Shown: in pieces, positions 31,419 through 52,136 of the stretch | Layout: the number at the start of each line of letters is the position of its first letter | Numbering within the stretch: the stretch's first letter is position 1 | DNA from: an uncultured Mycoplasmatota bacterium | Lineage (GTDB): Bacteria; Bacillota_I; Bacilli_A; Izemoplasmatales; Izemoplasmataceae | Direction of reading: 5' to 3' | NCBI GenBank assembly: GCA_913062645.1 | Contig: CAJXVW010000002.1 | Span: 489,433 to 553,432, forward strand | Length of the DNA: 64,000 nucleotides | Notes under the pieces: generated by a model | Seen by the model: only the letters and a program-made list of their open reading frames with translations | Databases searched by the model: none | What the model was told of the DNA's origin: nothing | Translations under genes and position numbers: made by a program

Positions 31419-31493
31419 TTAAGGGAAAGGGCCAATTTTGGCCCTTTTATTATAGTTATTCATATGGTGGTTGATCACGCTGAATGTCAAGTG

Positions 31494-31522
31494 TTGACAT
31501 CGAATTTACTCCGTGATATGAT
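31494..31522 (+). promoter_or_regulatory. purA promoter TTGACA-17-TATGAT
   Basis: -35 31494-31499, -10 31517-31522. Confidence 0.85.
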
Positions 31523-31528
31523 ACAAAT

Positions 31529-31606
31529 GGTTGTTTCCAAAACGGCGTACCAAACATGATGGATCGTACGCCATAGGTGTACCTTCCGGGTGCATTTTTT
31601 CTTTTT
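31529..31606 (+). promoter_or_regulatory. Candidate attenuator/riboswitch-like leader of purA
   Basis: Segments GGCGTAC (31544), GTACGCC (31566), GGTGTACC (31576), GGGTGCA (31588) with alternative pairing; T-runs from 31595; SD follows. Confidence 0.6.
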
Positions 31607-31620
31607 TAGGAGGAATTCGC

Positions 31621-32910
31621 ATGAAAGGCGTAGTAGTGATCGGAACCCAATGGGGGGACGAAGGAAAAGGCAAGGTAACGGACTTCCTGGCGGAACAGGC
31701 GGATGTCGTCGTCCGGTTCCAAGGTGGGAACAATGCGGGACACACGATCGTGTTCGATGACAGGAAATTCGCACTCCACCTGATTCCATCCGGGATTTTC
31801 CGAACCGAAGCAATCAATGTGCTGGCCAACGGCATGGTGATTGATCCAAAAGCGATGTTGGATGAGCTGGAAATGTTGAAACAAGGCGGAGTAACCGACT
31901 TTCAACTATACCTCAGCGATCGCGCACACGTCGTCTTGCCACAACACATTGAACTGGATGGATTGATGGAGGACATCAAGCCGCAGCACAAGAAAGTAGG
32001 CACAACCCGCAAAGGCATCGGTCCGGCATATACGGACAAATTCGCCCGCATCGGCATCCGCATTTGCGATTTGATCGATGAAGCTGCATTCAAGGACAAA
32101 CTCACTGACAATCTGAAGTATCACAATACGATCCTAACCGCATACGGAAAACCAGCCATCGACATCGAAGCGGTGTTTGACGAATACTACCAATACGGAC
32201 AACTCTTGAAACCTTATGTTACCGATACATCGCGGTTATTGAATGGTGTCTTGGAAGACGGCAAGAAAGTGTTGTTTGAAGGGGCCCAAGGAGCGTTGCT
32301 TTGTATCGATCATGGAACGTATCCTTTTGTCACTTCCAGTTCTCCAACAGCATCATCTGTTCCGCTTAACACGGGGGTTTCCCCGCAATATATCACGGAT
32401 GTGGTAGGGGTTACCAAAGCCTATTCAACACGAGTTGGCAGCGGCTGTTTCTTAACGGAGTTCAACAACGACACCGCCAGCAAGATTCGCGATGCCGGCA
32501 ATGAATATGGTACCACCACGGGTCGTCCGCGACGCATCGGGTGGTTGGATACGGTCGTATTGCGTCACACCAAGCGCGTTAGTGGCGTCACAGGACTCAG
32601 CGTGATGTTGTTGGATGTCTTGACGGGAATCGATCCGCTGAAGATTTGCGTCGCCTACCATCTGGATGGGAAGCGGATTGATTACATTCCGGCGTCAATC
32701 ACGGATTTGGAACGCTGCAAACCCGAATATGTGACCCTGCCGGGGTGGCATCAAGATATTACGAAAACAACCAAATTCAGCGATTTACCGGATGCTGCAA
32801 AGCAGTATTTGAATACCATTTCCGAGTTGGTTGGGATTCCAATATCGATGTTCAGCTTCGGACCGGATCGAACCCAGACCATCGTCCTAGACGATGTCAT
32901 GAACACATAA
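31621..32910 (+). CDS. purA: Adenylosuccinate synthetase
   Basis: MKGVVVIGTQWGDEGKGKVTDFLAEQADVVVRFQGGNNAGHTIV, GTTRKGIGPAYTDKFARIGIRI. Confidence 0.98.
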   Translation: MKGVVVIGTQWGDEGKGKVTDFLAEQADVVVRFQGGNNAGHTIVFDDRKFALHLIPSGIFRTEAINVLANGMVIDPKAMLDELEMLKQGGVTDFQLYLSDRAHVVLPQHIELDGLMEDIKPQHKKVGTTRKGIGPAYTDKFARIGIRICDLIDEAAFKDKLTDNLKYHNTILTAYGKPAIDIEAVFDEYYQYGQLLKPYVTDTSRLLNGVLEDGKKVLFEGAQGALLCIDHGTYPFVTSSSPTASSVPLNTGVSPQYITDVVGVTKAYSTRVGSGCFLTEFNNDTASKIRDAGNEYGTTTGRPRRIGWLDTVVLRHTKRVSGVTGLSVMLLDVLTGIDPLKICVAYHLDGKRIDYIPASITDLERCKPEYVTLPGWHQDITKTTKFSDLPDAAKQYLNTISELVGIPISMFSFGPDRTQTIVLDDVMNT

Positions 32911-48205: not shown

Positions 48206-48276
48206 CGCTTTTTTTATGAAAGTGTTTTCATTGTATTGCGCCGAATTTCAAACTTCGGTACACTAGAAACTGGTTG

Positions 48277-48347
48277 GTATTATATATGATCGATGATATG
48301 GTTCGATTGTCTCTACCCCGACGCCGTAAATGTTGGGACTATAGTAC
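48277..48347 (+). ncRNA. Guanine-class purine riboswitch aptamer
   Basis: P1 GTATTATA/TATAGTAC; GATATGG loop 2; TCTCTACC; P3 CCCGAC-GCCGTAAAT-GTTGGG; GACTAT (C at the position equivalent to xpt C74). Confidence 0.93.
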
Positions 48348-48436
48348 TGTTTTTATGTTTTGAGAGAATTCTCCCATTTTTTGATTTGTATATGATCCCA
48401 ACCGGACAAAAATCTAAAATACGGAGGATTTTTTTA

Positions 48437-51596: not shown

Positions 51597-52136
51597 TTGA
51601 TAGGAAACGAGAAGGTGATTGTTTTGCGAAAACTGATTGATCAAGATAAGATGATGCGCACCATACGGCGCATTTCTCATGAAATTATCGAACGCAACAG
51701 CGAGTTGGACAACCTGGTGTTGCTTGGCGTGCTCAAGAACGGAGTACCGCTTGCGGAAGAGATCCGCGACAACATCAACAAGATCGAGCACGTCGATGTT
51801 CCCATGCATGCGCTCGACATCTCCGGATATCGCGACGACATCCGTGTGGAATCGTTCACCCGACTCGATGTCGATCTCACCGGAAAAACCGTTGTCATCG
51901 TCGATGACGTGCTGTATACGGGACGAACCGTCCGCGCCGGCATGGATGCGATCATCGATCTCGGTCGTCCAGCCAAGATTCAACTGGCGGTCCTCATCGA
52001 TCGCGGCCATCGCGAATTGCCGATTCGTGCCGATTATGTCGGCAAGAACATGCCCACCAGCCAAACGGAAAAAATCAAGGTTCGCTTTGATAACGAGCCC
52101 GGGGTCTACATCATTCAAACGGAGGACGAATCATGA
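51597..52136 (+). CDS. pyrR: PyrR bifunctional regulator/uracil phosphoribosyltransferase
   Basis: [56 protein letters not shown]. Confidence 0.94.

Follow-up and report, generated by a model that had tools for sequence, protein, structure and literature searches.

How is purA, which acts at the IMP branch point, controlled in bacteria without PurR? In Bacillus subtilis, deletion of purR raised purA about 100-fold (PMC4223553). The locus described here concerns control of the same gene, but PurR is a DNA-binding repressor, and PurR (PurR_N) did not score above the cut-off in any of 90 genomes of the order, on which ground it was rejected as the regulator. In the window (the whole analysed stretch of 64,000 nucleotides, part of a 2-Mb genome; four genomes of its genus were compared), purA is preceded by a compact, conserved RNA element that is absent from databases and tied to this one gene.

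The anatomy of this leader is well supported (Table 1). The promoter, segments A to D, the U-tract and the AGGAGG motif that the first-pass annotation had listed were all recovered from the sequence, the segments, T6CT6 and AGGAGG lying within about 90 nt after the promoter. The promoter is strong, matches the consensus at 11 of 12 positions and aligns in the congener G001 and in other family members, with transcription expected to start around 31529-31530 (GG). Relatives also carry a terminator at the position of the mfd terminator. As a separate observation, purA-operon promoters throughout the order show a -10 box, six bases and then GG at the expected start (31517-31530 in the window, and aligned loci), so that transcripts would begin with GTP, a nucleotide that PurA also uses.

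Table 1. Features of the purA leader and adjoining elements; positions refer to the window.
Feature	Position	Strand	Remarks
Terminator of the upstream gene mfd	31425-31448	+	sets mfd apart from the purA unit
purA promoter: TTGACA (31494-31499), 17-nt spacer, TATGAT (31517-31522)	31494-31522	+	TG precedes the -10 box
A-rich flank AAAAC, 5' of A	31539-31543	+	within conserved (C)AAAAAC; unpaired in fold T
Segment A, GGCGTACC, with GGCGTAC at 31544-31550	31544-31551	+	partner of B; also complementary to D over 5 bp
Segment L (TGGA), 3' part of the A:B loop	31560-31563	+	partner of M; lengthens the B:C hairpin
Segment B, GTACGCC	31566-31572	+	pairing, alignment
Segment C, GGTGTACC	31576-31583	+	highest conservation of all segments, 0.99
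Segment M (TTCCG), terminator loop	31584-31588	+	partner of L
Segment D, (G)GGTGCA	31588-31594 (GGTGCA 31589-31594)	+	3' arm of the terminator
U-tract, T6CT6	31595-31607	+	sequence
Shine-Dalgarno, AGGAGG	31608-31613	+	sequence
purA, adenylosuccinate synthase, regulated gene; ATG at 31621	31621-32910	+	NCBIfam NF002223, E 6.9e-178

The pairings proposed in the first-pass annotation were confirmed in each particular. Segments A and B form a perfect 7-bp stem (-10.5 kcal/mol), B can pair with C over 7 bp with one G-U and a 3-nt loop (-8.6 kcal/mol), and the terminator pairing C:D (TGTACC:GGTGCA) comprises 6 bp with one G-U (-8.5 kcal/mol) and is extendable into the U-tract through G-U pairs. The combination of A:B with C:D and the alternative B:C are mutually exclusive and lie upstream of the U-tract, which is the general arrangement of a three-segment attenuator. 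In dinucleotide-preserving shuffles of 31523-31594, the joint occurrence of a perfect 7-bp A:B stem, a B:C partner and an overlapping C:D stem adjacent to a U-tract was found in 0 of 20,000 sequences, and the terminator part by itself in 295 of 20,000. The overall fold energy is ordinary (z -1.5); the case for the leader is thus one of arrangement and conservation, not of stability.

A first ortholog survey seemed negative: most relatives have another gene directly abutting purA on its 5' side, with no gap between the two. The same leader is found immediately 5' of purA in G001, and a covariance model built from only these two sequences (R1) then detected the element in G002, G003, G046, G049-G057 and G082, where a flavoprotein gene stands between it and purA. 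Matches in the 15 genomes reached E values down to 1e-17 with model R2 and of 3e-5 or better with R1. The alignment of the 15 leaders (A5) was the source of a later covariance model, which scored strongly once, and only once, in each of the 15 genomes, all of the same family (Izemoplasmatales) and always 3' of mfd, before purA or before the flavoprotein gene and then purA. No other convincing site was present in 49 genomes of the family, where only the purA-operon sites were strong; among the matches listed for 395 genomes of the class, those outside the family were chance-like (e.g. AT-rich terminators), and the remaining matches of a pattern search for A:B-like palindromes did not share the leader. 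Judged by sequence, conservation of the element extends to at least 15 species of a marine wall-less bacterial family; absence from orthologous leaders had been named beforehand as an observation that would speak against it.

Comparison of gene order indicates which gene the leader serves. In relatives (G002 and G003 were compared) a gene for a flavoprotein of 470 amino acids is located between mfd and purA; it is absent from G000 and G001, which have lost it and kept the leader before purA. Retention of the leader in front of purA despite this loss identifies purA as the target, so that the dedicated link to AMP synthesis suggested from the window holds.

The degree of conservation differs strongly along the element. 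In alignment A5 the mean major-base fraction is 0.91 for the 5' A-rich flank, 0.93 for A and 0.99 for C, as compared to 0.61 for L and 0.65 for the B-C linker (L, M and linker span 0.61-0.66). Conserved unpaired bases border A on both sides, (C)AAAAAC on the 5' and CAAAA on the 3' side, and conservation of the A-rich flank at the level of A and C, unlike that of L, M and the linker, suggests that A and its surroundings are recognised, or that the A-tract pairs with the U-tract. In A:B and C:D, 91.9% of cells hold standard pairs; slid controls reach 26-61%. The A:B pairing survives a double change from G-C to A-U in G050/G054, and C:D shows one C-G to U-A change, in G046. Covariation in related purA leaders, which the first-pass annotation had proposed to look for, is modest for A:B and C:D (two pairs changed on both sides, a count reached by 91 of 500 shuffles), since A, B, C and D constrain one another and hardly vary.

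A clearer signal came from a helix that was first spotted by inspection and tested afterwards. Segment L, on the 3' side of the A:B loop, is complementary to segment M in the terminator loop, and pairing of the two lengthens the B:C hairpin; both segments drift in sequence yet stay complementary within each species. The summed pairing energy of own-species L:M combinations was -45.0, compared to -19.6 (sd 5.6) for permuted combinations (0 of 20,000 permutations), whereas the 5' part of the same A:B loop, used as control, gave a null result; with dereplicated sets the test returned 8 and 1 of 50,000. A kissing contact in which L and M join the A:B loop to the C:D loop is disfavoured: only 0-2 nt separate L from B, and M runs straight on from C and makes use of the final C of that segment, which is what one extended hairpin would predict. 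We call the fold with A:B and terminator C:D fold T, and that with B:C extended by L:M fold N. At the level of aligned sequences, the species-specific L:M pairing is the strongest evidence for N as a selected structure and provides independent support for an alternative fold. A drifting L:M helix beside a locked four-way A/B/C/D core forms a clear evolutionary signature, and signatures of this type could help to find other attenuators that single-structure searches miss.

In constrained ensembles, T and N are at most 5 kcal/mol apart in 12 of the 15 species. According to equilibria computed for the growing transcript, A:B is the first helix to form in 13 of 15, B:C is dominant before D emerges in 10 and C:D is dominant at the U-tract in 10; a nested fold with A:D persists at the U-tract in G051, G053, G056, G057 and G082 (5 of 15). 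In the folding model, B:C forms poorly in G050, G054 and G046. Segments A and D are complementary in 97.3% of cells, in part because A and C nearly repeat each other, and with this complementarity N is perhaps not wholly terminator-free: in the models, the alternative fold can set a short A:D helix beside the U-tract, which might itself terminate. The first-pass annotation had assigned termination to A:B and readthrough to B:C. Its terminator/antiterminator switch is supported; clean readthrough is less certain in view of the A:D complementarity.

We regard the element, with good confidence, as a predicted transcription attenuator in which a terminator (A:B with C:D) alternates with an antiterminator (L:M with B:C). 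As the RNA emerges, A would pair with B first; once C and then M have emerged, B together with L could switch to C with M, and the extended hairpin of B:C and L:M would keep C off D and so act as antiterminator. If A:B is held, C would be free to form C:D, and we infer that RNA polymerase would then stop in the U-tract before purA. Since T and N are nearly balanced, a slight stabilisation of A:B, or a factor occupying A, would decide the outcome. As to which way control runs and what is sensed, adenine-nucleotide sufficiency may stabilise A:B via the conserved A-rich flanks and lead to purA termination as a form of feedback; a role of the end-product state (adenine nucleotides) in stabilising A:B is proposed tentatively, by analogy with PyrR and the uridine nucleotide signal at pyr genes. 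Taken as a whole, a predicted attenuator dedicated to purA is the likely and best explanation. That it constitutes a new small class of orphan riboswitch or RNA-protein switch, sensing adenine-nucleotide status and controlling only purA in a lineage without PurR, is rather doubtful. The first-pass interpretation is thereby supported in part: binding of a ligand or protein and termination at 31595-31606 are putative, and it lacked the lengthening of the antiterminator by L:M, the conserved A-rich stretches that border segment A and the family-wide conservation of the leader.

The logic of the leader is already known from PyrR-type attenuators; the element itself is uncatalogued in Rfam. A scan of the purA leader with Rfam 15 gave no match at gathering score and only chance-level scores at a relaxed threshold, in line with the first-pass statement that no known class was recognised; at the 15 homologous loci the relaxed threshold yielded only sub-threshold matches, none of them common to the loci. 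The purine riboswitch (RF00167) and the T-box (RF00230) are absent from the purA leader at gathering score, and the only Rfam matches in the window are one of each, a purine riboswitch at 48260-48361 and a T-box at 2690-2890 on the minus strand. The former aptamer precedes a gene which we named by eye from its sequence as an NCS2-type purine permease; the latter is barely above its gathering threshold (95.5 versus 93 bits). The purA leader has purine metabolism and control by leader RNA in common with the RF00167 family, but does not match it. In the literature searched, no paper dealt with a purA attenuator of this type or with riboswitches in Izemoplasma.

Among the closest known systems are the PyrR-controlled pyr attenuators of Bacillus, in which an anti-antiterminator A:B, an antiterminator B:C and a terminator C:D operate and stabilisation of A:B switches the gene off (PMC4347634). 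The purA leader has the same three-way logic, likewise in a leader of nucleotide synthesis, and a PyrR homologue is encoded in the window at 51597-52136, which raises the possibility that PyrR or a paralogue binds A:B. However, neither a PyrR-site nor any other Rfam model matches the leader in the window or at the 15 homologous loci; the leader is present without PyrR above cut-off in G053 and G055 (99% complete), and genomes such as G059-G061 carry PyrR without a leader match. This mismatched occurrence argues that PyrR is not the general regulator and largely refutes it as a general mechanism; we consider binding by PyrR or a paralogue very improbable. The purA leader further differs from pyr attenuators in its target and in its occurrence, which is not tied to that of PyrR, and its A:B loop is not conserved and its antiterminator is lengthened by the drifting L:M helix. 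The PyrR homologue in the window scores 208 bits, over the NCBIfam cut-off, and is located directly 5' of glyA and some 4 kb beyond purB; two copies occur in some relatives (G002, G049, G050 and G054).

Other explanations differ in what they leave unaccounted for. If the A:B hairpin with its A-rich flanks were a small aptamer for a purine metabolite (AMP, ATP, IMP, adenylosuccinate or GTP), the conserved unpaired motifs on both sides of A and the single dedicated target would fit, as would the purine riboswitch elsewhere in the genome, but conservation is poor in the A:B loop (11-21 nt) and in the B-C linker, and a pocket would have few conserved unpaired bases to draw on, so that an orphan riboswitch seems unlikely. 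The same flanks are left unexplained by a factor-independent kinetic switch, in which nucleotide levels would act through polymerase speed and pausing; speed would matter since the advantage of B:C is confined to the time before D has been transcribed. This interval, with M out and D not yet, favours B:C in 10 of 15 species, followed by C:D in 10 of 15, yet the transient is missing in several (G001, G046, G050 and G054), and we rate such a switch as somewhat less likely still. A plain unregulated terminator, in which D pairs with A or C and always ends transcription while a fixed fraction reads through, would suit the pervasive A:D complementarity and the hairpins of G062-G065 and G071, which are of the A:D type only; it gives no reason for B or for the species-specific L:M pairing and is an improbable reading. 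Attenuation by a leader peptide, in which A would be covered by a ribosome translating a short frame close to the 5' end, could be imagined for G000, where ATG...TGA (MVVSKTAYQT) spans A. No conserved translated leader peptide with a ribosome site was found in the 15 leaders: a Shine-Dalgarno sequence is missing, with no ribosome site so near to the expected start, the position of the frame relative to A varies among species (starts at -17, -18 and -19), the encoded peptides show no conservation, none is encoded in one species, and in several the frame stays open without a stop. This explanation is extremely improbable.

The hairpins in G062-G065 (one genus) and G071 occupy the same place as the purA leader. 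By eye, they are simpler and consist of an A-like segment with its complement beside the U-tract; an inner hairpin is present, and B and C are absent. These variants may be ancestral or reduced forms of the element. In G062 and G063 the flavoprotein gene is also missing between mfd and purA. That different and simpler terminator hairpins stand at the leader position of these genomes (loci L097, L155, L188, L191 and L136) suggests that the type of attenuator turns over at one locus.
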